The position numbers and the translations under genes were made by a program. A stretch of 34,218 nt of DNA from a virus. Numbering within the stretch: position 1 is the stretch's first letter; every line of letters begins with the position of its first letter. This document shows, one piece after another, positions 1,920 through 24,826 of this stretch. The DNA lies in the IMG/VR virus record IMGVR_UViG_3300028800_000230, positions 1-34,218 of that record; one strand, given 5' to 3'. The notes beneath the pieces were generated by a model that was not told where the DNA came from, ran no database searches, and saw only the letters and a list, made by a program, of their open reading frames with translations.

Positions 1920-3179
1920 ATGCGCTGGAAGATTGCAACCGCAATTTGCGGGCTGATCTTGCTTGCTTGCTGTGGCGGCTCTGCGTCGGCGCAGGTCTTC
2001 ATGGCGCAAACCGTTACGAGCTGCGGTATGGCACCAAGCAGCAGAAACGCGGGCGTGTCCTATGCACTGTTGCAAGACGTAAACGGAAACTTTTGCATCA
2101 CCGGCGCCGTTACCGGCACCTTCACAGCAACCCTTGGCGGCTTTACCCCGTCAACATCGGGCGCACGCGGCACGCCTATCTCGGTCACAACGGCTGATTC
2201 CAGTGGCGCGCTTCCTACTGGAGTGGTTGTTGTCGTATCGAACGTCGGAACGACTAATCCGATGTATTGTAACGTCAACGGCGTTGCGGCCACGACCTCG
2301 GATCAGTACATCGCGCCAAGCGGCGGCTGGTTTGCTTTCACGATCCCGTCAGGCATCACGACGCTGCATTGTATCGCTACGGGCGGCTCTACCACGGCTA
2401 ATATGGTTGGCGGGTCTGGCCTGCCAACTGGAACGGGCGGCGGGGGTGGAGGCGGTTCCAGCGCAATCAACACATGGGGAGGCGCAACGCTTGGTGCGGC
2501 AACGGCATGGGGGACGCCACCGACCGGCAACGTCATCGGAGCCAACGATAATCTAGCCTCGATGGGCGGCACGGCCATCGCCTCGGGATGCACGGCGGCT
2601 CTTAGCGGGTTCTCGACATCGATCCCCTCAATAATCTGCCCGGTCATGGGCATCTATGTTCTCAATGCAAATGCGAACGTAGCGAACAACGCTGATGGGG
2701 TGGCAGCGGGTGCAACTGCTGGATCGCCTGTTGTCAACTACAATTACGCCTTCAACGGCTCGACTTGGGACCGGCTCCAGGACGACGCCAACAAAAACCT
2801 GAAAATAGCTCCGCAGGCATTTCCTGCTGGCGGCTGGACGCCTAAGTGGTTTATTGCGGCTGCCTCTGATAATGCCACTAATCTCAAGTCCACCCCAGGA
2901 ACGGTCCATGCCGTCGAGGTTTACGGCATCGGATCAGCCCCAGCCTATCTGAAATTCTACAACAAGGCATCATCGCCGACCTGTGGCTCCGATACAATCG
3001 TGAAGCAGATCATGATCCCCGCCGCATCTACCGCAGCGAATGGTGCAGGCAGCAACGCCATCGTGCTCGATACTGCGTTCAGCACTGGAATCTCCTACTG
3101 CGTCGTGACCGGGATAGGACCAACCGACGATACATCGACAGCGGCCAGTACCTTCGTCGTTAATATTGATTGGCAGTAA
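1920..3179 (+). CDS. Exported phage structural-type protein with signal peptide
   Basis: This 419-residue protein begins with a classical signal peptide: basic MRWK, a hydrophobic core, then an A-S-A/Q-type cleavage site near residue 25. A glycine-rich linker lies near residues 170-180. The C-terminal ~120 residues resemble a beta-sandwich module common in phage structural proteins (sequence around YLKFYNKA, then FSTGI, then a DxD/WQ end). The mature part has 8 cysteines, unusual for a cytoplasmic virion component. An AAGGA site precedes the ATG at 1920. It is the first of three consecutive genes with signal peptides. The family is not firmly identified; it may be a receptor-binding or secreted accessory protein. 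Confidence 0.7.
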   Translation: MRWKIATAICGLILLACCGGSASAQVFMAQTVTSCGMAPSSRNAGVSYALLQDVNGNFCITGAVTGTFTATLGGFTPSTSGARGTPISVTTADSSGALPTGVVVVVSNVGTTNPMYCNVNGVAATTSDQYIAPSGGWFAFTIPSGITTLHCIATGGSTTANMVGGSGLPTGTGGGGGGGSSAINTWGGATLGAATAWGTPPTGNVIGANDNLASMGGTAIASGCTAALSGFSTSIPSIICPVMGIYVLNANANVANNADGVAAGATAGSPVVNYNYAFNGSTWDRLQDDANKNLKIAPQAFPAGGWTPKWFIAAASDNATNLKSTPGTVHAVEVYGIGSAPAYLKFYNKASSPTCGSDTIVKQIMIPAASTAANGAGSNAIVLDTAFSTGISYCVVTGIGPTDDTSTAASTFVVNIDWQ

Positions 3180-3184
3180 CCGCC

Positions 3185-4084
3185 ATGAAAATGCGTTTTC
3201 TCGCCGTCGCCCTATTCCTGCTCGGCATTGTCTGCCTTGCGCAGCAGTCGAGTGCGCAGCTTACAATGACAGGGATGGGGGGAGGGTTTGGGGCAGCCGC
3301 GAGTTACACTGGTCCCGGCGATATTCAGACATTCGCCTTTTGGGGCGGCTGGCGGTGCTACAGTAACGCCTATAGTGGAAACGCAGTTGACGTTTGGGAT
3401 GCTGCGACGGGTTCGACTATTGAAACGTTACTGACATGTTCTCCAGGCGGGACGCTTAATCAGACCATCCATACGCTCGCTACAACATGCGCGTCAGGCT
3501 GCGTGGTCAAAACAATCTACGATCAGACCGGCAATGGGCATGATACTACTCAAGCAACAAACTCGGATCGACCCAACGTTGTCGCTAACGCCATAAACTC
3601 AAGTTACTGTATGCAAGGACACACGTCGGGACCGCCGCTTTTGCCCGGTGCATCGGCTTACACGCAATCCCAACCATACAGCGCTGTAGGAATTAGCAAG
3701 TTTGGCACGGCGAACTATGGCGTATTTTCCATAACGGACGGCAGCTTTGGCGGTTTCATTGTCCAGTATAACAATCTGGCGACAACGCTGATCTTTTATG
3801 CTGGTGGTAGCGTCAGCGCGACGGTGACGAATGCCTTTCACGTTTGGCAAGTCGTCTTTAATGGCGCATCTGGCATCTACAATATTGATGGCAGCGATAC
3901 GACAGGGCAGAATTTCGGCAGCAACAGCCTGACGACATCGCAAACCTTGGGTATTTATAATGGCTCTGGCAACGGTCCATCAGATGCGATTGTGTGCGAA
4001 GTTGGCTATGTCGCCGGTTCAATTTCGACAGGCAATCGCGCCGCGCTGAACACGAACATGCACGCAGCTTACGGCGGTTTCTAA
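3185..4084 (+). CDS. Exported protein with arabinofuranosidase-B-like (GH54/LamG-like) domain
   Basis: The 299-residue product has a signal peptide (MKMRF..., cleavage near QSSA/Q at about 24). The mature domain carries hallmarks of the AbfB catalytic-type fold found in phage tail proteins: a Y-S-G-x-A-V-x-V-W strand near residues 60-68 and the conserved IYDQTGNGHD-x-T-Q block near 110-120, followed by a lectin-like beta-sandwich. It has six cysteines after the signal. I chose the ATG at 3185 because an upstream TTG adds residues before the signal peptide; ATG at 3191 is also possible. Likely a glycan-binding or glycan-degrading tail-associated protein. Catalytic activity cannot be asserted from sequence alone. 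Confidence 0.7.
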   Translation: MKMRFLAVALFLLGIVCLAQQSSAQLTMTGMGGGFGAAASYTGPGDIQTFAFWGGWRCYSNAYSGNAVDVWDAATGSTIETLLTCSPGGTLNQTIHTLATTCASGCVVKTIYDQTGNGHDTTQATNSDRPNVVANAINSSYCMQGHTSGPPLLPGASAYTQSQPYSAVGISKFGTANYGVFSITDGSFGGFIVQYNNLATTLIFYAGGSVSATVTNAFHVWQVVFNGASGIYNIDGSDTTGQNFGSNSLTTSQTLGIYNGSGNGPSDAIVCEVGYVAGSISTGNRAALNTNMHAAYGGF

Positions 4085-4085
4085 A

Positions 4086-6692
4086 ATGTGGCGGATGGTA
4101 TGGCTTGGTCTAATTGCATGTCTCTTTCAGGCGACGCCAGCCTCGGCGCAATCATCCTTCTGGATTGGACAGACTGTGGGCAGCTCCGCTCCGGCATGGT
4201 CCACACTCAAAATCGGCGGCGGCGGCTTTGTTAAATCGGCATGGATCGATCCGGGCGGAAGCGGGACATACTACGCCGCGCTCGATAGTCAGGGCGCGAT
4301 TTACTACAATAGGTCTGTCCCTTATTGCGGAAACACCTATTCCGGTCAGCCCGCGACCGGGTGTTGGCAACAGCTTGTTTCGGTAAGCTCTATAACGGAT
4401 CACATTAACGACGCGCGAAATCAGGCGGTCGGTGCCGGAACGACCTCCTATAACGAGAGCACGCAAGGCGCTTACGCCATCACCGGTTGCCAAAACAATC
4501 CCGCAGATGTTTATATGGTCTATGCGGGTTATCTTCGCTTTAGCAGCAACAATGGCGCAACGTTCACGACACCATCGGGCTATACACCGCTTCAAAATCT
4601 CAATCCGAATGGGACGTATCGCGGCAACAATTATTTTCTGGCTTGCGATCCCGCAAACCCCGCAATCGTTCTGTTTGGAACGGCGTTCAACGGGCTGCAA
4701 ATATGTTCCTCTTTCGGAACGAGTTGCAGCTTTCCATCTTCAGTTCCTCCGGGTATCGTCCCGGCCGCGCAGATCAAGGCGACGAGCACGACTTCAAAGA
4801 ACGTCGTCGGCCTTACAGGCTCACAGAGCTTCACGCTCAGCACATGCAGCGGGCTGAACAGTGGCAGTAGCGCTCCGATCCAAGCGTATTCTACCGCTAG
4901 CCCGGCCGCACAAATCCAGGGGACCGTGACAAGCTGTACTGGTGGTGCGCTGGTGATGAATGTAACGGCGACCTATGGCACCGGGACGCACGCTGACTGG
5001 AATTTCTATAACGCCGATTGGATTCAAGGAAATCCCGGCGGCCTTCCTGTCGCGTTTGACCCAACGTCAAGTACGGCAAGCAGCTTCACCCATGGCATCG
5101 CCGCGTGCCCTTATGGCAGTGGGGTATTTGAAAGCACGGACGGCGGATCGACTTGGGCACAGGCAAGCGGCGGCCCGACAACATGCCGCAATATGATCTA
5201 CGACAAGTTCGGCCAGATTTGGGTCAGCGACGATACCTCAAGCGGATCACTTTCGAACATCTGGAAATATAGCTGCGCTTCGGCACCCTGCGGCTCGACC
5301 GGGACATGGACGAACCTGAACCTTGGTGGGGGCAATGCAAATTCGGTGCAGGCGATAGCCGCAGATGGAGGGTCTGCCAGCGCCGCGACTGAGGTGCTGT
5401 GGTTCGGGTGCTGCGCTGGGGCGGCTGCATCTGGCATGTTCACGCTCAACGGTGGCAGCACGGTAAGCGCACCAAATAGTTTGACGATTACGCAGTCCGC
5501 GCAAGACGTGCCGTGGCTTGCTCAAAACGAAGCCTTCATGGGCACCGGAAGCATCAGCTTCGACACTTACGTATCTAATCCGTGTGGTGCCGCGCACTGC
5601 ATGATCATGGGAGAAGGTGTTGGACTGTGGTACGCAAAAGTCCCCAGCAGCATCAGCGCAACCGCAATTACATGGTCCAGCATCACGGCAGGCTATGAGC
5701 AATTGATTGCGCAGAGCATTCTGGCGCTCCCGAACGGCAACGTCGTGGCATCGGTTCAGGATCGCGATACGTTCGGCCTGACAAGCCTTACAAGCTATCC
5801 GCCTAATCCATCATATTGGCCGAATTTGGCGTGTTGCAGTATCGGCACGCAGGCCGATTACGCTTCGCTTTCGCCGACAACTGTTGTCGCTGCGGCCATC
5901 AACAATAATGGCGTTTTCTCCACGAACGGTGCCGCAACATTCTCTGCCTGGAACTCGCTTCCGAGCGAGGGCAGCGGCGGCGCCATCGCGGCCAGCGATG
6001 CGAACCACTGGCTGTTCGTGGCCCTTCAATCTCAGGGTGGCGATCCGTTTTGTACGTCGGATGGTAGCACGACATGGAACAAGCAAACGATTCTCACCGT
6101 TCCAAATGGCGACGGATGGGGTGGGGGATTTGCGCGCTGGACCGCTGCGGCTGATCGCGTCAACTCGGGGACCTTCTTTCTCTACAATAACGGCACGACG
6201 GCACCGGGGATTTACCTGACGCAGAACAATTGCAGCACCTGGGCTAAAGTTCTCACGGGTCATCTCTTTGGCGGCGCTGACGTTGCCAATATGCGTGTGC
6301 GCACTGTGCCAGGAGAGGCGGGCGACCTGCTCATCGTCAATGGCGAAGGCAATGGTATCGATTATTGTACGACGAATTTTTCGACGCCTGCGACAACCTG
6401 CACCGAAGTAACGACAGGAAACGGTTATCCTCATACAACCGACTTTGCGACGGACGTGTGCGCGGGTCCGATTGCGCCTGGAAAAAGCTATCCATCAGTC
6501 TCATTCATGGGCGAAGTCGATGGAGTGTTCGGACTTTGGTATTCCGACGATAAGTTTCAGACGTGGACGCAGTACGCGGTTCCACCGACTTATGATGCAT
6601 ATCAATCGCTGAGTTGCGATCCAAACAACTTACATCAGATTTTTCTCGGCCAAGGCGGCTCTGGTTTCAGCAAATACAACAGGCTGAATTGA
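4086..6692 (+). CDS. Exported BNR/Asp-box beta-propeller protein (sialidase/GH74-like)
   Basis: This 868-residue protein has a signal peptide (MWRMVWLG..., cleavage near PASA/Q at about 22). The body shows Asp-box-type S-x-D-x-G-x-x-W motifs: STDGGSTW near 350-357, SDGSTTW near 658, a degenerate NNCSTW near 714 and YSDDKFQTW near 818. These are spread as expected for beta-propeller blades of the sialidase/xyloglucanase superfamily. The N-terminal segment also matches the GGGGFV...IDPGG...Y pattern of phage GH74-like proteins. About 24 cysteines occur in the mature part, often in close pairs, suggesting disulfides. It starts one base after the previous stop. Probably a surface-glycan recognition or processing protein; whether it is part of the virion or secreted is open. 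Confidence 0.75.
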   Translation: MWRMVWLGLIACLFQATPASAQSSFWIGQTVGSSAPAWSTLKIGGGGFVKSAWIDPGGSGTYYAALDSQGAIYYNRSVPYCGNTYSGQPATGCWQQLVSVSSITDHINDARNQAVGAGTTSYNESTQGAYAITGCQNNPADVYMVYAGYLRFSSNNGATFTTPSGYTPLQNLNPNGTYRGNNYFLACDPANPAIVLFGTAFNGLQICSSFGTSCSFPSSVPPGIVPAAQIKATSTTSKNVVGLTGSQSFTLSTCSGLNSGSSAPIQAYSTASPAAQIQGTVTSCTGGALVMNVTATYGTGTHADWNFYNADWIQGNPGGLPVAFDPTSSTASSFTHGIAACPYGSGVFESTDGGSTWAQASGGPTTCRNMIYDKFGQIWVSDDTSSGSLSNIWKYSCASAPCGSTGTWTNLNLGGGNANSVQAIAADGGSASAATEVLWFGCCAGAAASGMFTLNGGSTVSAPNSLTITQSAQDVPWLAQNEAFMGTGSISFDTYVSNPCGAAHCMIMGEGVGLWYAKVPSSISATAITWSSITAGYEQLIAQSILALPNGNVVASVQDRDTFGLTSLTSYPPNPSYWPNLACCSIGTQADYASLSPTTVVAAAINNNGVFSTNGAATFSAWNSLPSEGSGGAIAASDANHWLFVALQSQGGDPFCTSDGSTTWNKQTILTVPNGDGWGGGFARWTAAADRVNSGTFFLYNNGTTAPGIYLTQNNCSTWAKVLTGHLFGGADVANMRVRTVPGEAGDLLIVNGEGNGIDYCTTNFSTPATTCTEVTTGNGYPHTTDFATDVCAGPIAPGKSYPSVSFMGEVDGVFGLWYSDDKFQTWTQYAVPPTYDAYQSLSCDPNNLHQIFLGQGGSGFSKYNRLN

Positions 6693-7424
6693 TCAGCGAG
6701 CTAGTCGGAAGGAATTTTTCCGCATTGAGGAATCGTTCCTCACAAACAGCAAATCTACTTGGGAAAGGTAATTCGCTTGAGGGCGGATGAAGCTGACAAT
6801 GTCCCAAATGGAAAAGCCTAGGTCTGACATAAAAGAGATGACCTCCGCTGATTGTGGGGCACCTTCGTTATAGGTTGTCAGAGCTGTTTCTAGTTGAATG
6901 ACCTCTGCCAGCTTTAGCGTTTCGTTCGCTCCACGTAGAACTTCAAGTTCGGCGCCCTGGACATCGAGTTTAAGAAAAAGAGGGCTCTGGCGGAAAAATG
7001 ATGGAAGAACGTCATCCAGGGTTTTGGTTCTCATAAGGCGGCCGTGCCGTGGCGCATCGCTGTTTTCGTTGAAAATAGATGATCCGGTCTCCATCATCGT
7101 GAATGGAATTTCCTTGTCGCTCTCCGAAGCAAGAAGGCAGATCACGGTTGAGGTCGTGGCCAAGCGTGATGAGATCGCTAAAAGTGCGTCGCGCTGCTTT
7201 TCCTGTGCCTCGATCATCAGGACATGACTGGCTGGAAAAAACCGGCGTATGAGCTTAGTCCAGTCGCCCCTGTAAGCGCCAATGTCAATGATGGCGGCGG
7301 GTTGGAATCCGCTCTCTTTGAGACGGCGGTAGGCAAGTTCGGGAAGGTAATCAAGCGCGGCATTCAATATGCCGCCTCTGCGTCTCGGGGAAATCCGTTC
7401 CAGTACGCTTCCTACAATGCCCAT
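6693..7424 (-). CDS. FkbM-family SAM-dependent methyltransferase (phage moron)
   Basis: The product has the class I methyltransferase glycine motif IDIGAYRG (residues 46-53 from the ATG at 7424), an acidic residue after the second strand (MIEA), and the FkbM hallmark KLDVQGAELEVLRG near 152-165. The family methylates hydroxyl groups of small molecules and sugars, including surface glycans. The gene is antisense to the late operon, ends base-to-base with the stop of the BNR protein and is divergent from the connector gene, so it is an independently inserted moron. A role in modifying host surface glycan, and so receptor or superinfection control, is inference. A longer GTG start at 7445 exists; ATG 7424 is preferred because a possible promoter ends just before it. 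Confidence 0.85.
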   Translation of the reverse strand: MGIVGSVLERISPRRRGGILNAALDYLPELAYRRLKESGFQPAAIIDIGAYRGDWTKLIRRFFPASHVLMIEAQEKQRDALLAISSRLATTSTVICLLASESDKEIPFTMMETGSSIFNENSDAPRHGRLMRTKTLDDVLPSFFRQSPLFLKLDVQGAELEVLRGANETLKLAEVIQLETALTTYNEGAPQSAEVISFMSDLGFSIWDIVSFIRPQANYLSQVDLLFVRNDSSMRKNSFRLAR

Positions 7425-7429
7425 CCCCC

Positions 7430-7459
7430 ATTCCACCGCAACCACGGGGCGAAAGTCAA
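7430..7459 (-). promoter_or_regulatory. Possible promoter for the antisense FkbM gene
   Basis: On the - strand TTGACT (7459-7454) is followed after 18 bases by TGGAAT (7435-7430), a fair sigma-70-like pair. The predicted transcription start falls at or next to the ATG at 7424, which would make the transcript leaderless or nearly so. The -10 is weak (4 of 6 to consensus), so this is only a candidate. Confidence 0.3.
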
Positions 7460-7481
7460 TGGGGGTTAAGAAGGAACCTTA

Positions 7482-8171
7482 ATGGCCAGTAGCGGCACCT
7501 ATACATTCGGCCCAAACGTCGGAGAATTGGTAGTCGCCGCCTATCGGCGCATCCAGATTCACCGCTCGGCGCTTTTGACCGAGCATTTTGCCGACGCCAA
7601 GACGGAATGCAATCTGCTGCAAGTGGCATGGGCTAATCTGGGGCCGTTGCTTTTTACCATCGATTTGCAAACGATCAATCTGGTGCAGGGCACCGCAACC
7701 TATTCCATTCCGGCCGATACGGTGATGATGCTTGACGTGTATCTGTCCATTCCCAACGGGGACGGCACGACCAGCGACCGCATCATCACATCATATAGCC
7801 GAACCGAATACGCCTCGACGCCTGACAAATCTCAGCAAGGGGCCAGTACGGTTTTTTGGTTTAACCGACAGGACAATCCGACCGTCACGCTATGGCCGGT
7901 TCCTGACGGCACAATCCCGACGCTGAACTATTATCGGTTCACGCAGATTCAGGACGCGGCCCTAACGAACGCGACGGCGCCGGCAATCCCGTACCTATGG
8001 CTCGATGCTTATGTCGCTGGACTGGCGCATCGGTTGGCTCGCCTGTACAAGCCAGATTTGGAAGCTGCGCGTGAGGCGGATGCCGTGAAGGCTTACAACG
8101 TGGCTTCGACCCAAGGAACTGAGAACACAGCATTATATATTTCCCCGATCACGTCGAGTTATTATCGATGA
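7482..8171 (+). CDS. Phage adaptor / head-tail connector-type protein
   Basis: The 229-residue product has the layout of podovirus adaptor proteins (SU10-adaptor or P22 gp4-like). An N-terminal helix-rich segment (VGELVVAAYRRIQI...) is followed by the LVQGTATYSIPADTVMMLDVYL strand pattern, an FWFNRQ...VTLWPVPDG strand pair and a C-terminal helical Y-V-A-G-L-A-H-R-L-A-R-L-Y segment. Such proteins form a ring below the portal and join it to the tail nozzle. An AAGGA site precedes the ATG, and the stop overlaps the next start as ATGA. The assignment rests on pattern recognition; a second, similar protein lies at 9455. Confidence 0.65.
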   Translation: MASSGTYTFGPNVGELVVAAYRRIQIHRSALLTEHFADAKTECNLLQVAWANLGPLLFTIDLQTINLVQGTATYSIPADTVMMLDVYLSIPNGDGTTSDRIITSYSRTEYASTPDKSQQGASTVFWFNRQDNPTVTLWPVPDGTIPTLNYYRFTQIQDAALTNATAPAIPYLWLDAYVAGLAHRLARLYKPDLEAAREADAVKAYNVASTQGTENTALYISPITSSYYR

Positions 8172-8659
8172 ACAAACCATCATTTTCAAACGTTTCTAAT
8201 ATTCTCCGATACAATAGAAAAACCGGGGAATTTCATTGGCGTGTATCTGTTGGAAGGGCCGTGGCTGGAAGGCCCGCCGGTTTTATTCGCAAGGATGGAT
8301 ATGTAAAAATCAAAATTAACGGCAAAGCGCATGGCGCTCATCAGCTTGCGTGGCTCTTATGTTATGGGGAATGGCCGAAGCATAGGATCGACCATAAGGA
8401 TAATGTACAAAGTCATAACTGGATAGACAATCTTCGATACGCATCGCATTCTCAAAATATGGCTAATCGTAAAAGGCATATAAACAACACTACGGGCTTC
8501 AAAGGAGTTCATCAGAAACCTAATGGCCGGTATCGAACTTCTGTCTGTAAGAACAACAAGCGAATATGGCTTGGTACGTTTGAGACAGCAAAAGAAGCTC
8601 ACGATGCATACTGCGCAGCAGCAGTAGAGCTGCATGGTGAATTTGCACGGACGGCCTAA
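8168..8659 (+). CDS. HNH homing endonuclease with C-terminal AP2 DNA-binding domain
   Basis: This 163-residue protein carries an HNH_3-type nuclease core: H58 in GAHQLAW, IDHKDN at 74-79, then N-x-x-x-N-L-R-Y-A at about 84-92 and an NMANRK tail. It is followed by an AP2-like domain (about 110-160: GFKGVHQ..., WLGTFETAKEAHDAY). This architecture is typical of free-standing phage homing endonucleases. The DNA is visibly richer in A+T than its neighbours, a sign of separate origin. It overlaps the upstream connector gene by 4 bases (ATGA), so it inserted without breaking it. No intron boundary is apparent. Confidence 0.9.
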   Translation: MNKPSFSNVSNILRYNRKTGEFHWRVSVGRAVAGRPAGFIRKDGYVKIKINGKAHGAHQLAWLLCYGEWPKHRIDHKDNVQSHNWIDNLRYASHSQNMANRKRHINNTTGFKGVHQKPNGRYRTSVCKNNKRIWLGTFETAKEAHDAYCAAAVELHGEFARTA

Positions 8660-8662
8660 TTT

Positions 8663-9043
8663 ATGGCGCGTCCGCATGGGCACGTCCGCGTTAATGCTCG
8701 TTCGCCCCGAGCTGCCGGAATATGCGACAGATGCGGCCGAGCAACAAATCATTACAAGCTGCGATGGCAATGGCAGTGGGCAGGCGAGCGCCTTCAAAAT
8801 CTTCGGATACTTGTCTGCGCTCATTGTGAAGACGTTCCGCAAGAGCAGTTGCGCGCCCGCATTCTCTCGCCCGATCCGTTGCCGATCTTCAATGCTCGCC
8901 CAGAGCCGTTCACGACAACTGGCTTTAATCTATACGGCGAGTCCAATGTCGTCACTACGGCGGCCGATCTTGGAAATATCTTCATCCTGACTGCTGACGG
9001 CACTGCGGTTCTCTTGATGTCGAACCAGCCCACGGGGACTTAA
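8663..9043 (+). CDS. Phage zinc-ribbon small structural-region protein
   Basis: This 126-residue protein has two CxxC knuckles (C21-x2-C24 and C52-x2-C55) separated by a Trp-rich stretch (LRWQWQWAG). The pattern recurs in small phage proteins encoded beside connector genes. After the zinc ribbon come a PDPLP...NARPEP linker and a short C-terminal beta-type domain ending near LMSNQPTGT. It starts 3 bases after the stop of the homing endonuclease gene. Its role is unknown; the position suggests head completion or connector assembly. Confidence 0.75.
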   Translation: MARPHGHVRVNARSPRAAGICDRCGRATNHYKLRWQWQWAGERLQNLRILVCAHCEDVPQEQLRARILSPDPLPIFNARPEPFTTTGFNLYGESNVVTTAADLGNIFILTADGTAVLLMSNQPTGT

Positions 9044-9046
9044 AAT

Positions 9047-9451
9047 ATGGCTGGCTATGTCGGCACCACGCTTAACGACCTGCCTCCCGTTCTAGGGCTG
9101 AACGGAACAGAGCTGTTTTTTCTCTATCAGTACGATCCGCTCTTAGGCGTTTGGGTCACATATTCCTGCACGGCAGACCAGATTGCCAATCTTTCAAGCG
9201 GATCAGGCGGAGGCTCCGGGGTTTGCTCAATGCGTCAGTTGTTCGCCGCAATGGCCGATGAGGATGTTCTGGTGACAGCCTTCGACCAACTACCGTCCGA
9301 CATAACGAATAGCTACAACATAGCCTGGAATCATGCCTATCGCATGACGATAACGGACACATTCATTACCGGGTTTTTGCAGCCCGCTATTGGCTACTCT
9401 AGTGCGCAAATGGCCGCGCTGTTTGTGCTTGCGGCTACTTTCCCGGTTTAG
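9047..9451 (+). CDS. Hypothetical phage protein of the connector module
   Basis: The 134-residue acidic protein has an N-terminal segment resembling a short phage structural motif (LPPVLGLNGTELFFLYQYD...TADQIANL), then a Gly/Ser linker near residues 51-57 and a hydrophobic C-terminal part. It starts 3 bases after the previous stop and ends 3 bases before the next start, so it belongs to the connector operon. No enzyme motif or signal peptide is visible. The family is not identified. Confidence 0.65.
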   Translation: MAGYVGTTLNDLPPVLGLNGTELFFLYQYDPLLGVWVTYSCTADQIANLSSGSGGGSGVCSMRQLFAAMADEDVLVTAFDQLPSDITNSYNIAWNHAYRMTITDTFITGFLQPAIGYSSAQMAALFVLAATFPV

Positions 9452-9454
9452 GCG

Positions 9455-10168
9455 ATGTCGCTCACGTATGATCAATATTTGGCAGAGCTTGCGTTGTTGT
9501 CACAATTCAACGCGACGGACCCCAATTTTCTATCAAATTTGCCTTCGTGCATAGACTACGCGACCGACAGGATCACGCGCGAACTCGACCTGCTCAATAC
9601 CGTTACGGCGAACAGCACTTTAACACTGACGACAGGCACGCGCATTGTCTCTATGGCAACTCTCAATCCGGTGTTTAATGTGGTTCGCGACATCAACGTA
9701 CTGACGCCGGTTGGCACGACGGACCCCGATCTTGGCACGCGCAATCCGATGACGATCTCCACCACGGCGTTTCTGAATCAGGTCTATGGCGCCAATACTG
9801 GAACTGGTGTTCCAGAATATTTCGCAATGGTCACTGATCAAAAAATCATGGTCGGGCCGTATCCCGACAAGGCATACAATCTGGAAATTATCGGCACGGT
9901 GCGGCCGACGCCGATTTCTGCGATCAACCAGACCAATTGGATTTCAATCTACCTTCCTGATTTGTTTCTTGCCTGCTCAATGATCCAGATGAGCGGCTTC
10001 AAGATGAACTTTGGCGCTCAGGCAGATGATCCGAAAATGGCGATGAGCTGGGAGACGCAGTACGTCACATTGCGCGACAGCGCCGCTACCGAAGACGCGA
10101 TGCGTAAATACGCTTCGACTGGTTGGAATTCCCAACTGCCAACGCAGTTCAATACCGCTCGCACCTAA
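9455..10168 (+). CDS. Second phage adaptor / tail-connector protein (SU10-adaptor-like)
   Basis: This 237-residue protein has the layout of a podovirus adaptor. An N-terminal helix holds the C-x-D-Y-A-x-x-R-I-x-R-E-L-D-L-L pattern (about 32-47); next come a strand pair (LTLTTGTRIVSM), a V-x-Y-F-A-M-V segment with an I-M-V-G-P-Y-P-D turn (about 128-140), and an L-P-D-L-F-L-A-C helix. Such proteins sit between portal and tail nozzle. Its stop overlaps the next ATG (TAATG). It is broadly similar in plan to 7482-8171, so the two may form successive rings or be ancient paralogues. Confidence 0.7.
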   Translation: MSLTYDQYLAELALLSQFNATDPNFLSNLPSCIDYATDRITRELDLLNTVTANSTLTLTTGTRIVSMATLNPVFNVVRDINVLTPVGTTDPDLGTRNPMTISTTAFLNQVYGANTGTGVPEYFAMVTDQKIMVGPYPDKAYNLEIIGTVRPTPISAINQTNWISIYLPDLFLACSMIQMSGFKMNFGAQADDPKMAMSWETQYVTLRDSAATEDAMRKYASTGWNSQLPTQFNTART

Positions 10169-12201
10169 TGCCTACGGCAACTGTTAAGCTCAATCCCGGC
10201 GTCAATACGGATCAAACTCCGTCGCTGAATCAGGCGGCCTACCAGACCACGCAGCTAATCCGCTGGGACCCTGGCTCTGGACTTGCGCAAAAGCTCGGTG
10301 GCTGGAGCAAGTTTTATCCCTTCCCGATAGACTCGAATGTCACGGCGTTGCACGCATGGGAGGATTTGTCCGCTGTACTGCATCTGGGTGTCGGCGCCGT
10401 TGATTCGCTCGATGTCATCACGGCTGGTCAACTCCAAAACATCACGCCGCAAATCAGGACCACAAATCCTGCGGTGAATTTTTCGACCACGATGGGCAGT
10501 CCAATCGTCACGATTGTTGACACAGGCAGCAACACGACGGTTTATGACAACATCATTCTCGAAACGCCGGTTAGCATCGGCGGCCTTGTGCTGATGGGGG
10601 CCTATCCTATTACTGATCCTGTTTCTTCAGATTCTTACCAAATCACTGCGACCGGCAATGCCACATCCTCAGTGCCGAATGGTGGTGCGGTTCCTAAGTT
10701 GACGACTGTTAACGGAGTTTCATCTGTTACCGTTGTTCTCGACAATCACGGCTATAGCGTTGGCGGCACGTTCCCCATAACGCTGCCAACCACAATTGGT
10801 GGCCTCACGCTTTTCGGTTTTTACTCGGTCAATAGCGTCACAGACGCAAATACGTTCGTCATCAACGCTTCAAATCAAGCGAACGCTTCCGTCACGGCAT
10901 TCATGAATGGCGGCGATGCCAACATTGTTTATTACATCACGCCTGGCCCGTCCGCTCTCGGCACGGGATACGGCGACGGCAGTTACGGCGATGGCGGATA
11001 CGGCGACGGCGTGCCGCCACCTCCTTTTGTCGGGACGCCGATAACGGCAATCGACTACACGCTGGACAATTTCGGCGGCACACTGATTGCGTGCCCAGAC
11101 AATGGGCCGATCTTCGCTTGGACGCCGGAATCCGGCCTCTTCAACGCACAGATGATCGCCAATGCGCCGACGATCAACACGGGGATTTTTATCTCCACAT
11201 CGGCCGAAATCATTATCGCGTATGGGTCGAGTGTTTTAGGTGTGCAGGACCCATTGCTGATAAATTGGTGCAGCGCCGGAAACTACAACAATTGGACTGC
11301 GACTGTCGGCAACTTGGCAGGCTCGTTCCGTCTCCCGACTGGTTCACGGATAGTCGGCGGACTTCAAGGGCCGATGTACGACGTGATCTTCACGGACCTT
11401 GATGTCAGGTCGATGACATTCATCGGCGCGCCGAATGCGTACAGCTTCAACGTGCTCGCCTCGGGTTGTGGCCTGATCGCCAAGTTTGCTGCCGCCGTGC
11501 TCGGAACAACTGTTTATTGGATGAGCCAGAAGCAGTTTTTCGAGCTTCCTGCGGGCGGTAGCGTCACGCCGCTTCCGTGTACGGTCTGGGACTGGGTTTT
11601 CCAGCAGCTTGATACGTCAAACGTCGCGTCAATACGCGCTGCGCCAAATTCTCAGTTCGGTGAAATGACTTGGTATTTTCCAGTGAAGGGCGGCGACGGC
11701 AAGAACTCGGCTTACGTAAAATTCACCCCACAATTCAACGCTTGGGATTACGGCTTACTTGGCCGCTCTGCATGGATTGACCAATCAGGTTTAGGCGCTC
11801 CGATCGGGGCCGATTCCGAATTGAAATACATCTACCAGCACGAAACATCGAATGACGCCGATGGCGTGGCAATGCAGCCGTCATTCTCGACTGGTTATTG
11901 GGCGATGGCGGATGGCGAAGAGATGCTAGTCTGCGATCTGGTGCAGCCCGATATCCGCTTCGGCATGATGGGCCAGCCTCAGAACGCTACGGTCAATATT
12001 TCGTTCTCCTATGCGGCCTATGCGCAGGCCACGGTTTACACGACGCCGACCTATACGATGCAGTCAGGCAATCCGAATTTTCTCAATCCGCGTTTTCGTG
12101 GCCGTCTGGCGGCAATGAATATCAGCAGTTCAGACCTCAATACGTGGTGGCGCATGGGCGGCCCAAGAATCCGCACCGCGCCTGACGGCAAACTCGGATG
12201 A
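10168..12201 (+). CDS. Tail nozzle / DNA-stabilisation-type protein
   Basis: The 677-residue product begins LNPGVNTDQTPSLN...IRWDPGSGLAQKLGGW, the opening pattern of podovirus nozzle and DNA-stabilisation proteins (P22 gp10-like or tail tubular B-like), which extend from the adaptor ring. Two related inserts at about 110-165 and 183-240 share a T-I-V/VL-D start and an IGGL-x-L-x-G-x-Y core, like tandem Ig-like modules. A short YGDG repeat lies near 267-280. I chose ATG 10168, which overlaps the previous stop, over an upstream TTG inside the adaptor gene. The final TGA overlaps the next ATG. Confidence 0.7.
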   Translation: MPTATVKLNPGVNTDQTPSLNQAAYQTTQLIRWDPGSGLAQKLGGWSKFYPFPIDSNVTALHAWEDLSAVLHLGVGAVDSLDVITAGQLQNITPQIRTTNPAVNFSTTMGSPIVTIVDTGSNTTVYDNIILETPVSIGGLVLMGAYPITDPVSSDSYQITATGNATSSVPNGGAVPKLTTVNGVSSVTVVLDNHGYSVGGTFPITLPTTIGGLTLFGFYSVNSVTDANTFVINASNQANASVTAFMNGGDANIVYYITPGPSALGTGYGDGSYGDGGYGDGVPPPPFVGTPITAIDYTLDNFGGTLIACPDNGPIFAWTPESGLFNAQMIANAPTINTGIFISTSAEIIIAYGSSVLGVQDPLLINWCSAGNYNNWTATVGNLAGSFRLPTGSRIVGGLQGPMYDVIFTDLDVRSMTFIGAPNAYSFNVLASGCGLIAKFAAAVLGTTVYWMSQKQFFELPAGGSVTPLPCTVWDWVFQQLDTSNVASIRAAPNSQFGEMTWYFPVKGGDGKNSAYVKFTPQFNAWDYGLLGRSAWIDQSGLGAPIGADSELKYIYQHETSNDADGVAMQPSFSTGYWAMADGEEMLVCDLVQPDIRFGMMGQPQNATVNISFSYAAYAQATVYTTPTYTMQSGNPNFLNPRFRGRLAAMNISSSDLNTWWRMGGPRIRTAPDGKLG

Positions 12202-12479
12202 GTAGCCAGCCGTTGCCAATTCCTGGTCTGCAAACTGTTGTCACCAACCTTCAAAATTTGGTGTTGGCGGTCAATGCACTTACGGCAGCGGTCACCACGC
12301 AGTTTAGCGCCAACAAGGTCTACACGGTTGCCACCTTGCCAGTAAGCGGCGCACCAGCGCGGGCGTTTGTGTCTGATAGCTCAGTAGCGGCATCAACCCA
12401 TTTCGGCAGCGCAGTCGTCGGCGGCGGCACAAATACCGTTCCGGTTTATTACGACAATACGAGCTGGAAAATCGGATGA
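12198..12479 (+). CDS. Small conserved phage protein (coiled N-terminus, GGG-N-x-VPVY C-terminus)
   Basis: This 93-residue protein has an N-terminal heptad-like helix (about 10-38) and a compact C-terminal module with ARAFVSDSSV and GGGTNTVPVYYD...W. I know this module from tail-fibre and neck-region proteins of many phages. It overlaps both neighbours by ATGA, indicating coupled translation between the nozzle gene and the next structural gene. The exact function is unknown; a small trimeric fibre or fibre-adaptor is possible. Confidence 0.7.
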   Translation: MSSQPLPIPGLQTVVTNLQNLVLAVNALTAAVTTQFSANKVYTVATLPVSGAPARAFVSDSSVAASTHFGSAVVGGGTNTVPVYYDNTSWKIG

Positions 12480-16500: not shown

Positions 16501-17082
16501 CGCCAGCTTTCGCGTCAACGATTGCAGGCGTTGCAGGGCATTATGCAAACCTTCCAGCCGGGGACGTTCGCAGAGCAAAAGGCCAATATCGTTGCCTCGC
16601 TTCGCGCCGTTGGAATTCCAGTGCCAGATAGCGCGACAGCTAATCCAGCCGCGTTTCAGGAGTTCACCAAGAACGCAATCGCTAACGTCTTTAATGACGT
16701 GAAGGCGCAAGGTGGTCGCGTCATGGTGTCTGAGATATTGGGATTGACCAAAGCGAACGCCAATCCCGAATTGCAGCCCGCCGCTGCGGCAGCAATCATT
16801 GGACAGGGACTTGGCGTCCTCAACTACGAGGATCAGCACACCAAGGATTATTTCACTTGGAAGCAAAAGAACCCGAATGCTTACGATACGTCGTCGTTTG
16901 AAATTCCCTGGATGCAATCTCATCCGGTCAGTGAGTTTGTCGGACAGGCGAACAAGGGCATTGCGTATAGCGGGCAAGAGATTCCAGCCCCCCCACAGCG
17001 CGTTGTCGGACAGAGCTACATGACGCCGAAAGGCCCTGCCGTATGGCGCGGTAACGGCTGGCAATTGGCTCCCGCACAATGA
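13549..17082 (+). CDS. Large ejection-type virion protein with lytic transglycosylase (SLT) domain
   Basis: This 1177-residue protein is rich in Gln, Ala and Asn in its first ~280 residues, with a repetitive helical pattern (SPYQSDVINAT, GSFGGDRAGVAQ) that I know from podovirus internal proteins. Two basic GG-x-V motifs follow (KRGGRV near 297, RRGGPV near 427). Residues about 510-630 form a soluble-lytic-transglycosylase-like domain: catalytic Glu518 in QAESNGN, then GAVGIAQVMPGTG and AAAYNAGPGR. Such domains cut peptidoglycan during genome delivery. The C-terminal part is Ala/Pro-rich and helical. I see no cysteine. The start abuts the GNAT stop, and the stop overlaps the next start (ATGA). 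Confidence 0.85.
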   Translation: MGSKPSSQQNTSSSYTPPPQVLQNYQQVTSQAQGVAATPYSAYGGQLVSPINAQQQTGIGAVNSASGIEDPYNTGATGLAGASASAINPTAVNGAAISQYESPYQSDVINATEAEIQNQNQQQAAALQGNSIASGSFGGDRAGVAQAALAGQQDIASNATIANLNNQNYAQALGEANTQQGIGLSAAQNTAARQLAASQQLGTLGSTAQTEALNEANAQTNAGTLEQTTQQAQDTAAYNQFLQQQAYPFETTGWLANIVEGIGSQSGGTSTGQTTNQTSTASQYAGAALGLASFLKRGGRVPHRASGGGLGGAMIIAPNLYNPTAAGGPTGLGGGSYVPQINLQTGHTMPTSTGASTNPAAQTPQQQGQSIAQTAKAVQTLGSAAQGAWNNPAYGGGNALEGDAFGGSGASPLDGLSAADYGAGFRRGGPVRHYDGGGLVPDDNSVLFDPNAMGGPSVDSALTPAARVDQGFAGMADSGPNVGLAASPPIAPDVPLPAARPATANNADPTFGRMIQAESNGNQFNTDGSPLVSGNGAVGIAQVMPGTGPEAAQYAGVPWDPNKLATDPQYNLALGKAYYQHQLSTYGSPDLAAAAYNAGPGRLNQALAAAAKNGGSYLDYLPPETQAYVAKVTGGDPAGGALAFDNQQPSAPVSSPGLKAIGNALLPSDNGTQTSAPQFPDSTPTPPSGRTGLLGLNLSPETRQLMLSAGLGIMGGTSRSALTNIGQGGLKGIQQFNANRTTAADVGLKGAQTQQALTETAIKQQQLQLMMKALEANQKIFAGSQSSAAPSVETPTVTAPTIAPTGKAGGAPSTATAPQAAAPAAAPAQTPAMQVSPQYDPVRLRAAAENMSFVNPAAAANYRDQAEAIESGKAQVQFADGHWGYFNPQAGIDLAAQKSGAEAAAGAKAKLPYETTEIQPTPGGPTYTVPKSQVLGVGAGSPPGSAMDSAAAANPAVAKQPAFYEDRQKLIAKNEQDMLGQMQVRQLSRQRLQALQGIMQTFQPGTFAEQKANIVASLRAVGIPVPDSATANPAAFQEFTKNAIANVFNDVKAQGGRVMVSEILGLTKANANPELQPAAAAAIIGQGLGVLNYEDQHTKDYFTWKQKNPNAYDTSSFEIPWMQSHPVSEFVGQANKGIAYSGQEIPAPPQRVVGQSYMTPKGPAVWRGNGWQLAPAQ

Positions 17083-20477: not shown

Positions 20478-20479
20478 TT

Positions 20480-21175
20480 CTAACCTAGTGGGCCGTACTT
20501 TCTATACCATGTTGTTCGCGGGATTCCGGCTTCTTCCCATGGGCACCTAGCTTTTTTCGGGTTCTCTCTGTGGAAGATGACGGCACTTAGCGATCCTCGC
20601 AATTTCAATGCGACGTGTAATTGCGGAGACGATATTCCGAGTTCGGCGGCCCAAGCCGCTAGGCACATAGTGCGACCTTTGTGCTCTAAGAAACGTGTAG
20701 CGCGGGTATTTCGTGACTGCTCTTTCTTCGTAACCCACTTACAGTTTGATGGACAATAACCTCGGTCGTTGTCCGTCCGATCTATCGAATGTCTCGGCGT
20801 TGGCCGTCGTCCCATGTCTCTAATAAAATTCTCAAATCGACGCCAGTGGCGACATACCGTGATTCCACGACCTCCATATTTGTGCCAGCCGCGATCATTC
20901 GGGTTGGTGCACCTCTGAATTATAGCATCCCAAATGTGATACTCGGGTGTCTGAGATAGACCATGCGTTATTTGTTGCTTCCCAGCTTCTTCAATTTTTA
21001 GACATCCGCAACTTTTCGTATGGCCTTTTCGTAGATTGCCGAGAAAAAAGCTGCGCAGCGTTCCGCAATCGCATCGGCACTGAACGATAGTGCCAGTAGG
21101 TGTGTTTACCGCATTTGTAGTCACAGTCAGTCGGCCGAACCTATGGCCGATCTTCGGAAAATTCCTATTCCACAT
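20480..21175 (-). CDS. HNH-type homing endonuclease with N-terminal zinc ribbon
   Basis: The 231-residue product matches a common phage homing family: an N-terminal GHRFGRLTV segment; a zinc ribbon with C33, C35, C37 and a C-G-C at 56-58 (SCGC); HG...Y-x-I-W...RC-x-N-P near 71-92; YGGRGITVCRHW near 100-111; and a catalytic region HSIDRTDNDRGYCPSNCKW at 129-147 ending in Q-S-R-N. It is antisense to the late genes, placed exactly between the ejection and collar-fibre genes. ATG 21175 has GGAGA 7 bases upstream; an earlier ATG at 21226 would overlap the start of the fibre gene and is less likely. Confidence 0.9.
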   Translation of the reverse strand: MWNRNFPKIGHRFGRLTVTTNAVNTPTGTIVQCRCDCGTLRSFFLGNLRKGHTKSCGCLKIEEAGKQQITHGLSQTPEYHIWDAIIQRCTNPNDRGWHKYGGRGITVCRHWRRFENFIRDMGRRPTPRHSIDRTDNDRGYCPSNCKWVTKKEQSRNTRATRFLEHKGRTMCLAAWAAELGISSPQLHVALKLRGSLSAVIFHRENPKKARCPWEEAGIPRTTWYRKYGPLG

Positions 21176-21197
21176 CGCTGTCTCCGTGGGGCAATGA

Positions 21198-22193
21198 ATG
21201 ACATCTGTTTTCACAACAAATATCAATTTAGAGGAGCCTGCCCGAGGCGATTATGTAAACGATTGGGACGTGCCAGTCAACGCAAATCAAACAGTTATCG
21301 ACCAAGCTTTCGGCTCCTCTACCTCAATCGCTTTCACCAATGCAAACGTCACCCTTACCGTTGCACAGGCGGCATTTTTTCAGATCGTTTGCACAGGAAC
21401 GCTAAGCGGAAACGTTGCGCTAATCCTGCCAGGAACAATCGGCGGTCGCCGCGTTATCTTCAATCAATGCACGGGCGCATTCACGCTTGCTGTTTTCAAT
21501 GGTTCTGGTGACGCGGGCGGCGGTGTCATTGTCGGACAGGGATTCCAGACGCCAATCGCCCTAACAGGAGGCCGCGCCTATTACGATGCTTATGCTTCCA
21601 CGCCACCTGGAACGCTGTTACCGTTTGCTGGCGTAACGCCGCCGCCTGGATTTTTTCTCTGCTATGGCGCGGCTGTTTCGAGAACGACCTACGCAGCATT
21701 GTTTGCCGCGCTCGGCACGACATGGGGCAGCGGCGACGGAACAACCACATTCAATCTCCCCGACTTTCGCGGACGTACTCTTGCCGGCGCCGACAATATG
21801 GGCGGCACCCCAGCGGGGAGGTTGACGGGGTACACGGTTGGAACGACGGGCGGCGGACAGTCAGACACCACAACCGTTACACTCGTCCAAGCAAACCTGC
21901 CAAATGTGTCCCCGGCAATTTCCGCGACGTTCACCGGCAATCAAGCGAACTACACGCTGTTCGGAGCGGGCGGTGCGAGCAACATAGAAGTTCCAACAAC
22001 GACTCCGGGGGCCGGGTGGCAGAACGGCAATTCAGGCACATTTACTGCTGGCGGTTTCGCCCAGGGAACGCCATCAGGCTCCGTTACTGGCACGGTCGCC
22101 ATCAACGGGAATCAAACTCAGACAGCGGCCACCAGCTCCGCATTTTCCATCGTCCAGCCCACCGCCGCCATCAACTACATAATCCGGTACTGA
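21198..22193 (+). CDS. Tail fibre protein with phage tail collar domain
   Basis: This 331-residue protein has a Phage_Collar-type domain at about 136-200: PPGTLLPFAG, then a GFFLCYGAAVSR-x-TYAALFAALG segment, GDGTTTFNLPDFRGRT and the following GADNMGG. The C-terminal part is Gly/Thr-rich and ends SFSIVQPTAAINYIIRY-like, as in collar fibres. It has no signal peptide and only three cysteines, unlike the fibre encoded next. The start is 22 bp from the divergent start of the HNH gene and its ribosome-binding site is weak, so upstream control may have been altered by that insertion. The next gene starts 2 bp after its stop. Confidence 0.85.
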   Translation: MTSVFTTNINLEEPARGDYVNDWDVPVNANQTVIDQAFGSSTSIAFTNANVTLTVAQAAFFQIVCTGTLSGNVALILPGTIGGRRVIFNQCTGAFTLAVFNGSGDAGGGVIVGQGFQTPIALTGGRAYYDAYASTPPGTLLPFAGVTPPPGFFLCYGAAVSRTTYAALFAALGTTWGSGDGTTTFNLPDFRGRTLAGADNMGGTPAGRLTGYTVGTTGGGQSDTTTVTLVQANLPNVSPAISATFTGNQANYTLFGAGGASNIEVPTTTPGAGWQNGNSGTFTAGGFAQGTPSGSVTGTVAINGNQTQTAATSSAFSIVQPTAAINYIIRY

Positions 22194-22195
22194 TA

Positions 22196-24826
22196 ATGAA
22201 GCACGTTCTCGCGCTGCTGTTGACGCTGCTGCCCGCAATGGCATCGGCTCAGACCGCCGTTCAATTCGGCGCGGTCAGGACCGCAAGCCCGTGGAATATC
22301 TGCGTCTATGACTCGGCCAATGTTTGTCAGAATTTTCTCACGCTGCCTTCGACTGGCGGCGGCGCGCTTGTGCCGTCAGCAAATGGTGGAACGGGCGTCA
22401 ACAACGGCACGAGCACAATCACTATCGGAGGCAGTCTGGTTCTCTCCGGTGCCTACACATTCACTGGAACGCTGACCGGCAATACATCTGTGACATTCCC
22501 GACGACTGGTGCCATTATCGCGAATCCAGGCGGGACAGCTTGTTTTTACCAGAATGATAGCGGCGGCAATTTTACTTGCGGTGCCGGCGGCAGCGGTATT
22601 TCGGCATTAACCGGCGACGTGACCGCAAGCGGATTTGGTTCTGTCGTGGCGACGCTGGCGACGGTCAACTCGGGTCCCGGCTCTGTCGGCTCATCGACTG
22701 CAATTCCTGTATTAACGACAAACGCTAAGGGGCTTGTTACGGCACAAACGACGGCCGCGGTTGTAGCTCCGGCAGGTACATTGAGCGGCGCAATGCTGGC
22801 AAGTGGTGTCACAGCGTCGTCTCTGACTTCGTTCGGCAATGCGCCGACGATTGCCAATCCAACGATTACGGGACTTCCGACTGGGGCTGGCGCAATCATC
22901 GCCATCAACGGAACGAATTGTCAGCTCGCACTATCTTGTACTATCCCAGTGTCATCCATTGCCGTTTCAATTCCGCTAACAGGCGGTACGCCGAATGGCT
23001 TGATTTACAACAATGCCAATACCGTAGGAAATCTCGCCACGGCCAATAGCGGTGTTCTGGTCACGTCGAGCGGCGGCGCTCCCTCTATTTCGACCACATT
23101 GCCGAATGGCCTAGCGATGGGCACGCCCGCCTCATTGGTGCTGACAAGTGCTACGGGTTTGCCGCTCACGACTGGCGTTACAGGAGTCCTGCCACTCGCC
23201 AACGGTGGCACCAACAACAACCTGACCGCAAGCAACGGCGGCATAGTCTATTCTGATGCGAGCAAATTGAATATTCTTGCTGGTACGGCTTCTGCTGGGC
23301 AGTGCTTGTTAAGCGGTTCCAATACAGCCCCGACGTGGGGGTCATGTGGCGGTGGCGCAGCGGTTTCCGGCGTGACAAACAGCGATGGAAGCTTGACGAT
23401 CAGCCCGACTACTGGCGCAGTCGTTGCTTCACTCAACCCAGCTCACGCCAATGCATGGACTGCCGTCCAGACTTTCACCAACAGCGATATTCGACTGTTG
23501 GGGTCTTCGACGGGATACACGACACTGACGAGTGCCAACGCAAGCGTAACAAACTTTACGCTGACTATCCCTGCCGTTACCGATACAGCAGCCGTATTGG
23601 GCTTGAGCCAGACCTTTACCGGAACGGAGACGCTAACCGGAGGTCTGGTGTGCACTGGGTCTATCCAATGCGGTGTATGGACGGCCGGCGCGAGCAACAG
23701 CATTGCTAACAACAACACCGGGAATGTCGGCATCGGGACTAGCAGCCCTGTTTCTAAACTCCATGTCGCTGGAGCGATCACACTTACCTCCGGGTCATCT
23801 GGCCTTTCAGTTGGTGTCGGCGGTACAGCGCCGCCATCTGGGGGCGCGCTTTTCGGTGGTAACGTTTACATGGGAGGCGGTCGCCCATGGGCAGATGTTC
23901 GATCTGGAGCAAACAGTTGTACGGCAGCAGTAGGTGATGGCGTTACTGATGATTACGCAGCCATTCAATGCCAGATTACATTCATGGGAACGACGTTTGC
24001 GGGCGGCGTCGTCTATCTTCCGTGCGGCAATTATCTGGTAGGGACGACACTAACTGTTGCTTATAATGTCACCATAGTAGGTGAGGGCCGAGCTTGCACA
24101 GACATCAAAGTAACAACCAATATTTTAGCGTTGCAAGTCGAAAGTTCATCTATTCAACTTTCCTTTGCAGGTTTTCGCGAATTGAGCTTTTTCTGTCCGC
24201 AAAGTTCTGGTGCAACGGCAAACTGTGTAGAGATCGACAATTGCATTGGCTGCACTTTTGAAAATTTCCAAATTTTGGGCGGCAATTGGGCACTCTATAT
24301 TTGTGGAACCTGCGGTTTTCCAGGCGGATACGGCACTGGAGGCGATAACACATATCGGACTGCATTAATTAGCGGCTGGGGTTCCAGCGGCGGCGCCATC
24401 AAGGAATACGATTCGGGAAATTGGTTTTATGACATCAAGGCCGATACTGTCGGACAGACGATGGCATGGTCATTGCTTATGACATCTGATTTGGGATCGA
24501 GCGATATTCTGGAAAACGATTTCTTCCGCATTGATTTGCAGTCGGTCAATGGCGTCTCTATCAATGATACGGTCGGGACTGGCAATACCGTTGCCTCATT
24601 TTTTCACCCCATCGGTTGGCACGCCGGAAGCGGTATTGGAACGTTGCTTCAATTGATGATCGATGGAGCGGAAATAGCAGGTAATTTTACCGTGCTCAAA
24701 GGCAACATGACGATTGCAAACTCGTCTGGCATCGGTGGCTCATTTGGCGTGGCTGTCACAACAGGCACTTGTCATGTTGCCGCCCTAGCAAATATTACTT
24801 TTGGTGGAACTTGCACGTCGCCATAA
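22196..24826 (+). CDS. Large tail fibre/tailspike-type protein with signal peptide and beta-helix
   Basis: The 876-residue product begins with a classical signal peptide (MKHVLALLL..., cleavage near MASA/Q at about 19). A long fibre region follows with repeated PSANGGTG/PLANGGTN motifs and ALTGDVTAS, then a GNVGIGTSSPVSKLHV knot near 509-526. From about 565 it has the pectate-lyase-3-type start (WADVRSGA, GDGVTDDYAAIQ, GGVVYLPCGNYLV) leading into a right-handed beta-helix. I count 22 cysteines in the mature protein, ten or so clustered in the beta-helix. A tailspike with glycan-binding or depolymerase role is likely; export by the host is the odd part. I placed the start at ATG 22196 because the frame extending upstream lies in the collar gene. 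Confidence 0.8.
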   Translation: MKHVLALLLTLLPAMASAQTAVQFGAVRTASPWNICVYDSANVCQNFLTLPSTGGGALVPSANGGTGVNNGTSTITIGGSLVLSGAYTFTGTLTGNTSVTFPTTGAIIANPGGTACFYQNDSGGNFTCGAGGSGISALTGDVTASGFGSVVATLATVNSGPGSVGSSTAIPVLTTNAKGLVTAQTTAAVVAPAGTLSGAMLASGVTASSLTSFGNAPTIANPTITGLPTGAGAIIAINGTNCQLALSCTIPVSSIAVSIPLTGGTPNGLIYNNANTVGNLATANSGVLVTSSGGAPSISTTLPNGLAMGTPASLVLTSATGLPLTTGVTGVLPLANGGTNNNLTASNGGIVYSDASKLNILAGTASAGQCLLSGSNTAPTWGSCGGGAAVSGVTNSDGSLTISPTTGAVVASLNPAHANAWTAVQTFTNSDIRLLGSSTGYTTLTSANASVTNFTLTIPAVTDTAAVLGLSQTFTGTETLTGGLVCTGSIQCGVWTAGASNSIANNNTGNVGIGTSSPVSKLHVAGAITLTSGSSGLSVGVGGTAPPSGGALFGGNVYMGGGRPWADVRSGANSCTAAVGDGVTDDYAAIQCQITFMGTTFAGGVVYLPCGNYLVGTTLTVAYNVTIVGEGRACTDIKVTTNILALQVESSSIQLSFAGFRELSFFCPQSSGATANCVEIDNCIGCTFENFQILGGNWALYICGTCGFPGGYGTGGDNTYRTALISGWGSSGGAIKEYDSGNWFYDIKADTVGQTMAWSLLMTSDLGSSDILENDFFRIDLQSVNGVSINDTVGTGNTVASFFHPIGWHAGSGIGTLLQLMIDGAEIAGNFTVLKGNMTIANSSGIGGSFGVAVTTGTCHVAALANITFGGTCTSP

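Follow-up and report, generated by a model that had tools for sequence, protein, structure and literature searches.

Why should large late proteins of a tailed phage carry signal peptides (SPs) and many cysteines? The reducing cytoplasm is taken to be the sole assembly site of tailed-phage virions. The question is raised by a viral DNA of 34,218 nucleotides (IMG/VR record IMGVR_UViG_3300028800_000230, positions 1–34,218), here called the window, in which four large late genes encode proteins with predicted SPs. We find that fibre-like proteins with Sec-type SPs and paired cysteines are encoded by a cassette of this phage lineage, set gene to gene among the late head and tail genes. Many uncultured relatives likewise combine SPs and paired cysteines in fibre-like proteins.

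All four proteins begin with the pattern recognised by Sec and signal peptidase I (SPase I). Their forward-strand frames open at 1920–3179 (SP protein 1, 419 amino acids, aa), 3185–4084 (SP protein 2, 299 aa), 4086–6692 (SP protein 3, 868 aa) and 22196–24826 (SP protein 4, 876 aa), and the preceding stop codon lies at most 12 bases before each start. The N-termini show a positive n-region, a hydrophobic core of 8–14 residues and an A-x-A site. Predicted SPs span residues 1–24, 1–24, 1–21 and 1–18, with cleavage falling between MRWKIATAICGLILLACCGGSASA, MKMRFLAVALFLLGIVCLAQQSSA, MWRMVWLGLIACLFQATPASA and MKHVLALLLTLLPAMASA, respectively, and a Gln at +1. SPs were called with a home-made n/h/c rule with controls, on unverified IMG/VR contigs (loci with L numbers below) and home-made gene calls. 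The four proteins score 12.7–14.6, within the range of seven E. coli control SPs (11.6–15.1), which confirms by this rule the SPs proposed in an earlier, sequence-only reading of the window. The coordinates and frames given there are correct. Shuffled N-termini match the observed scores in 1–30 of 5000 trials, and 0.07–0.08% of internal Met sites (n = 5949) pass the rule. We also gathered relatives through the window's tail nozzle-like virion structural protein (10123–12201, forward strand; phrog_3287, E = 4e-46), which led to 80 related loci; profile searches of genome collections with this protein gave no match. None of 406 large genes in the more distant nozzle relatives passes the SP rule.

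Homologues of the SP proteins with SPs of their own exist, and the proteins show fibre-like features. SP sequences diverge among them while the n/h/c pattern stays. SP protein 1 has SP-bearing homologues in L083–L088, L097 and L126, and the homologue of SP protein 3 (L097:4526) is likewise SP-bearing. SP protein 2 belongs to a LamG/arabinofuranosidase-B-like family in which a conserved QL(T/S) motif starts at the first residue past the predicted cleavage site, its Gln-Leu kept in all five aligned members. SP protein 4 combines fibre-type repeats with a pectate-lyase-like beta-helix (PF12708, E = 1.4e-15); it resembles the signal-less fibre L015:16 (1597 aa, 1 Cys), and its homologue L082:4497 has an SP and 12 mature Cys. 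Searches for cultured-phage matches to SP proteins 2 and 3 and to the late protein at 17079 found none, and no peptidoglycan-degrading domain was matched in Pfam by any of the four SP proteins. The lipobox and small size of Llp/Cor-type proteins are absent here, the mature proteins measuring 275–860 aa. A possible LLAC-C motif, present only in SP protein 1 of the four, raised a lipoprotein reading, which we rejected because homologues, including those in L083 and L084, lack it. A cytoplasmic form of SP protein 2 started at internal codons (for example 3266) was rejected because homologues have no Met there. Across the window and loci L082–L175, the predicted mature sequence starts with Gln in 38 of 90 SP proteins. 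This recalls the Q rule of Bacteroidetes, yet a proteobacterial host is what the relatives of the window point to.

Cysteines are enriched in the SP-bearing proteins and mostly come in even numbers. Mature SP proteins 1–4 contain exactly 8, 6, 24 and 22 Cys, the figures that had been estimated by eye. Within the late region, Cys accounts for 2.53% of residues in SP proteins (60/2375) versus 0.49% (22/4480) in all signal-less late proteins of at least 120 aa (Fisher p = 1.5e-12). The sequence-only reading had drawn its contrast with the proteins at 13549 and 17079. These do lack Cys, but the contrast says little, since Cys is absent or nearly so from the relatives' internal virion proteins too. 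We dropped them and used signal-less fibre-like proteins and signal-less homologues in their place. In loci brought in by a jelly-roll domain of SP protein 1, proteins of low charge and 200 aa or more were classed as fibre-like; their median Cys content is 1.5% for those with an SP (n = 63) and 0.57% for the signal-less ones (n = 150; p = 1e-12). Of the fibre-like proteins with at least one Cys, 53 of 59 SP-bearing ones have an even count, versus 53 of 115 signal-less ones (46%). After clustering of relatives, mostly-even clusters number 26 of 30 with SPs (p = 6e-5) versus 38 of 79 without. Full disulfide pairing predicts even counts; fibre composition gives no such prediction. Three large signal-less proteins of nozzle relatives are exceptions to the low-Cys rule for cytoplasmic proteins, with 17–18 Cys each (L064:245-2857, L064:6707-8989 and L055:2482-4191).

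A single domain links the cysteine pair directly to the SP. SP protein 1 ends in the jelly-roll domain (2802–3176, forward strand), whose diagnostic Cys pair is encoded at 2982–2984 and 3099–3101. We collected homologues of the C-terminal 125 residues from IMG/VR loci L093–L172, three genome loci and Caulobacter phage KSC gp46, and counted 88 distinct, 5'-complete copies, 28 with an SP and 60 without. Both Cys are present in 18 of the 28 SP-bearing copies (21 when three one-column alignment shifts are allowed) and in none of the 60 signal-less copies, where these columns hold mostly Val and Ala. At least two Cys occur in the domain of 24/28 SP-bearing versus 3/60 signal-less copies (p = 2e-14). 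The SP-bearing copies of L126, L148 and L003 have an alternative pair, with one Cys close to where the third strand begins and the other in the last strand or close to it, and the additional Cys of SP-bearing copies are mostly paired (positions 53/59, 15/28, 12/36 and 38–40/120–122). Paralogues within one phage (L106, L109) differ in SP and Cys pair together. Neither a convincing SP nor such a pair is seen in five cultured-phage homologues (KSC, S2B, Cr30, Octadecabacter DB2 and Synechococcus DSL-LC07) or in the jelly-roll copies of 14 of 397 Hyphomicrobiales genomes. SP and cysteines thus vary together among homologues, a check that the sequence-only reading had suggested; homologues lacking both features, which it had named beforehand as refuting, do exist, and in them the two are absent together. 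On a domain tree built with Cys masked, the SP label changes nine times on the best tree, at least three changes being forced by supported branches, and repeated gain or loss of the SP is likely in this family.

The jelly-roll fold itself is predicted well, with eight strands and a predicted local distance difference test score (pLDDT) of 87.5. A fold search of the PDB returned generic jelly rolls (plant-virus coats, C1q/TNF heads, a phage cement protein; best E = 3e-3, none below 1e-3), and matches in BFVD are uncharacterised phage proteins. Sequence searches of PHROGs and the PDB with the domain gave no match. In L106 (4441-5367) a tail completion/terminator domain is fused to the same jelly roll in a signal-less protein directly upstream of SP-bearing copies, with similar arrangements in L103, L108, L109, L116 and L128.

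SP genes occupy structural modules in several types of tailed phage, where they stand in tandem among head and tail genes. The cassette follows the portal gene in L097 and L126, lies between the genes for the major head protein and head closure in L084, and between those for the tail completion protein and the major tail protein in L106. An order of 1920-like gene, 3185-like gene and one large variable gene recurs in the window, L083, L084 and L126; in L095, whose neighbourhood, like that of L096, is unclear, a 3185-like gene adjoins a large one. In one cassette member, L084:7819, an SP and a Peptidase_S74 chaperone domain (PF13884) occur on the same chain. Seven phages have a signal-less jelly-roll copy just upstream of the SP-bearing copies, and in L106 that copy carries the tail completion domain. 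Two loci replace Sec signals with twin-arginine (Tat-like) signals (L095:7247-9385 and L146:8027-8929). L146:8027 is a homologue of SP protein 2 with zero Cys, versus 6–10 in the Sec forms, which would suit a protein exported already folded. Because Tat-type signals occur at both loci, export itself seems to be under selection.

In the window, SP proteins stand where other relatives have long cytoplasmic fibres. Sequence upstream of the nozzle gene is available for 21 other nozzle relatives: 19 of them encode signal-less proteins of 400 aa or more there (the longest 1783 aa), and none encodes a large SP protein. The window and its sister L003 show the reverse in this place, with three large SP proteins each and no signal-less protein of that size. 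What persists of the relatives' long fibre is a stub of 134 aa (9047–9451, forward strand) that keeps the N-terminal anchor; its N-terminal profile also matches fibres of 673–1435 aa in eight relatives, and the stub measures 133 aa in L003 and 110 aa in L002. The anchor profile matches none of the SP proteins. We do not class them as ordinary fibres, because a particle-binding domain of their own, part of the definition of a fibre, is absent. The stub and the signal-less jelly-roll copies, we infer, could be virion anchors beside exported distal modules. Directly upstream of the cassette lies a gene for a signal-less protein (916–1908, forward strand), whose L002 homologue is followed directly by the homologue of the gene at 7482, with no cassette. 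A signal-less tail collar protein (21198–22193, forward strand; PF07484, E = 4e-21) is encoded just ahead of SP protein 4, with 2 bases between the two genes.

Of the steps considered, export and disulfide formation have the best support, and we regard both as very probable, because the Cys pair tracks the SP, counts are even and the cassettes sit in structural modules. The earlier proposal of an exported, oxidised fibre/propeller set therefore stands as to export and oxidation, to which the Tat-type signals also speak. The propeller assigned to SP protein 3 is weak: its basis is a sub-threshold Pfam match (E = 0.002), and the structure model (pLDDT 28) was not interpreted.

Where would the exported proteins act? 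We tentatively favour a role as virion appendage modules that mature in the periplasm and join particles at lysis, which may be correct. Very probably the host Sec machinery sends the proteins to the periplasm, SPase I cleaves them, mostly before Gln, and host Dsb enzymes form the disulfides that yield stable lectin-, jelly-roll- and beta-helix-type modules. Less certainly, these modules would be the phage's appendages, and a short anchor on the virion would be what is left of this lineage's cytoplasmic fibre. After holin and endolysin have breached the inner membrane and wall, the modules could dock on assembled particles, which would be finished in the periplasm or at lysis. Docking would explain why the genes lie in this operon, why the proteins have fibre domains and why the fibre has been replaced. 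Several points weigh against it. No tailed phage is known to us to finish its virion by adding exported fibres, and the cultured relatives of the jelly-roll domain are all signal-less. The tree of this short domain is poorly resolved, with many open forks, and a test on independent pairs had only three pairs and was underpowered. The stub is known from one clade only, and in L002, on an incomplete contig, it occurs with no cassette in the expected position. Several SP-bearing phages keep signal-less fibre-type proteins, which fits a role free of the virion equally well.

Such a free role is possible, if on the doubtful side. Secreted glycan-binding or glycan-cutting modules would collect in the periplasm, be freed at lysis and act on receptors and surface polymers by masking or cutting them, which would keep progeny from sticking to debris and protect infected cells from a second infection. 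The lectin-, arabinofuranosidase-, GDSL- and pectate-lyase-like similarities of the SP proteins suit this, and SP-bearing and signal-less copies of one domain in the same phage are what a virion copy and its soluble competitor would look like. Precedent comes from two disulfide-bonded superinfection-exclusion proteins, T5 Llp (Cys11–Cys58, acting in the periplasm; PMC9586334) and Rtp45 (Cys30–Cys38; PMC12685063). Like them, the SP proteins are phage-encoded and predicted to be exported to the periplasm and disulfide-bonded, here with glycans as the presumed target. Those precedents, however, are small lipoproteins, the Llp type being made early, whereas the SP proteins are large (275–860 aa), of SPase I type, numerous, late, in tandem and equipped with fibre domains. 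Peptidase_S74 and fibre repeats belong to assembled fibres. Since neither the window nor L003 has the large signal-less fibres, their SP proteins look more like substitutes than additions.

Lysogenic conversion would make the SP genes cargo that the prophage expresses to alter the envelope or secretome of its host. The neighbouring genes at 27550 (outer-membrane-protein-like) and 25415 (host-like and exported) may do the same. It comes into question because an integrase gene (32045–33034) suggests a temperate phage, and the L002 interval without a cassette is as expected for cargo. SP genes of Porphyromonas gingivalis phages, of unknown function and also with Gln at +1, were interpreted in this way, as modifying the host outer membrane; the passages of that report on these genes draw no link to fibres or Cys pairs (PMC10367356). 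Yet the window's SP genes are packed into the late structural operon with gaps of 1–12 bases and no convincing promoter or terminator of their own, they carry fibre domains, and the domain is always signal-less in the 14 Hyphomicrobiales genomes. We consider conversion unlikely. Very improbable is an artefact or relic, in which the N-termini are not working SPs or bacterial genes for secreted proteins were picked up recently, with SP and Cys as passive baggage. The SP rule is home-made and the surroundings of some contigs (L095, L096) are unclear, but the rule passes only 0.07% of internal Met sites and 0/406 genes in distant relatives, and the n/h/c pattern outlasts the sequence divergence. 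The jelly-roll domain is of phage type, with signal-less phage homologues that lack the Cys pair.

Known systems share single features with the SP proteins. Tail fibres and tailspikes, such as Peptidase_S74 fibres and pectate-lyase-like tailspikes, have the same domain types, fibre repeats and late structural operon position, but those known fold in the reducing cytoplasm without SPs, whereas the proteins here have Sec (or Tat) signals and paired Cys. Filamentous phages do build virions from proteins with SPs (pVIII and pIII, the latter also with disulfides). They are membrane-extruded, single-stranded DNA phages with no homology to the double-stranded DNA (dsDNA) tailed phages considered here, which lyse the host. 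A true cleavable SP in a tailed phage is that of the Sec-exported endolysin Lys44 of phage fOg44 (PMC6116005), a lysis enzyme, unlike the four proteins here, which have no lytic domain. Phage target proteins of diversity-generating retroelements are reported to be without SPs (PMC6199706).

Other genes of the window include further SP genes that the sequence-only reading had overlooked. A small SP protein without Cys (24850–25110, forward strand; 86 aa) is encoded downstream of SP protein 4. The gene at 25415–25822 encodes a small exported or possibly anchored protein; copies 48–59% identical, several per genome, occur in 5 of 199 Hyphomicrobiales genomes, all large (7–9 Mb), and point to a Bradyrhizobium-like host. 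An outer-membrane-protein-like gene (27550–28335), with an SP and no Cys, is a possible superinfection or conversion factor. The protein encoded at 26004–26678 has an Rv2525c-like glycoside-hydrolase domain (PF08924) and is a probable lysis enzyme. An FkbM-type methyltransferase gene (6693–7445, reverse strand) lies between the SP cassette and the tail genes. A homing-type endonuclease gene of the HNH/AP2 kind sits inside the late operon, and another Cys-rich gene resembles a homing insertion (8168–8659 and 20480–21226, reverse strand).

Exported endolysins, superinfection-exclusion lipoproteins and Porphyromonas phage SP genes make phage use of host export already known. We found no paper tying SPs to fibre-type proteins or Cys pairing, which is weak evidence since the search covered open-access literature only. 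An SP with an even Cys count within a late structural operon offers a signature for finding more such genes. More tentatively than for this lineage alone, we suggest that some dsDNA tailed phages of didermic bacteria could divide particle assembly between two compartments. The cytoplasm would supply heads, tails and short anchors, the periplasm would supply receptor-binding modules stabilised by disulfides, and lysis would bring the two together. If true, the finding would mean a second assembly compartment, or else a large unrecognised set of phage-secreted effectors, and it would account for some of the large late genes that lack annotation in phages from soil and freshwater.

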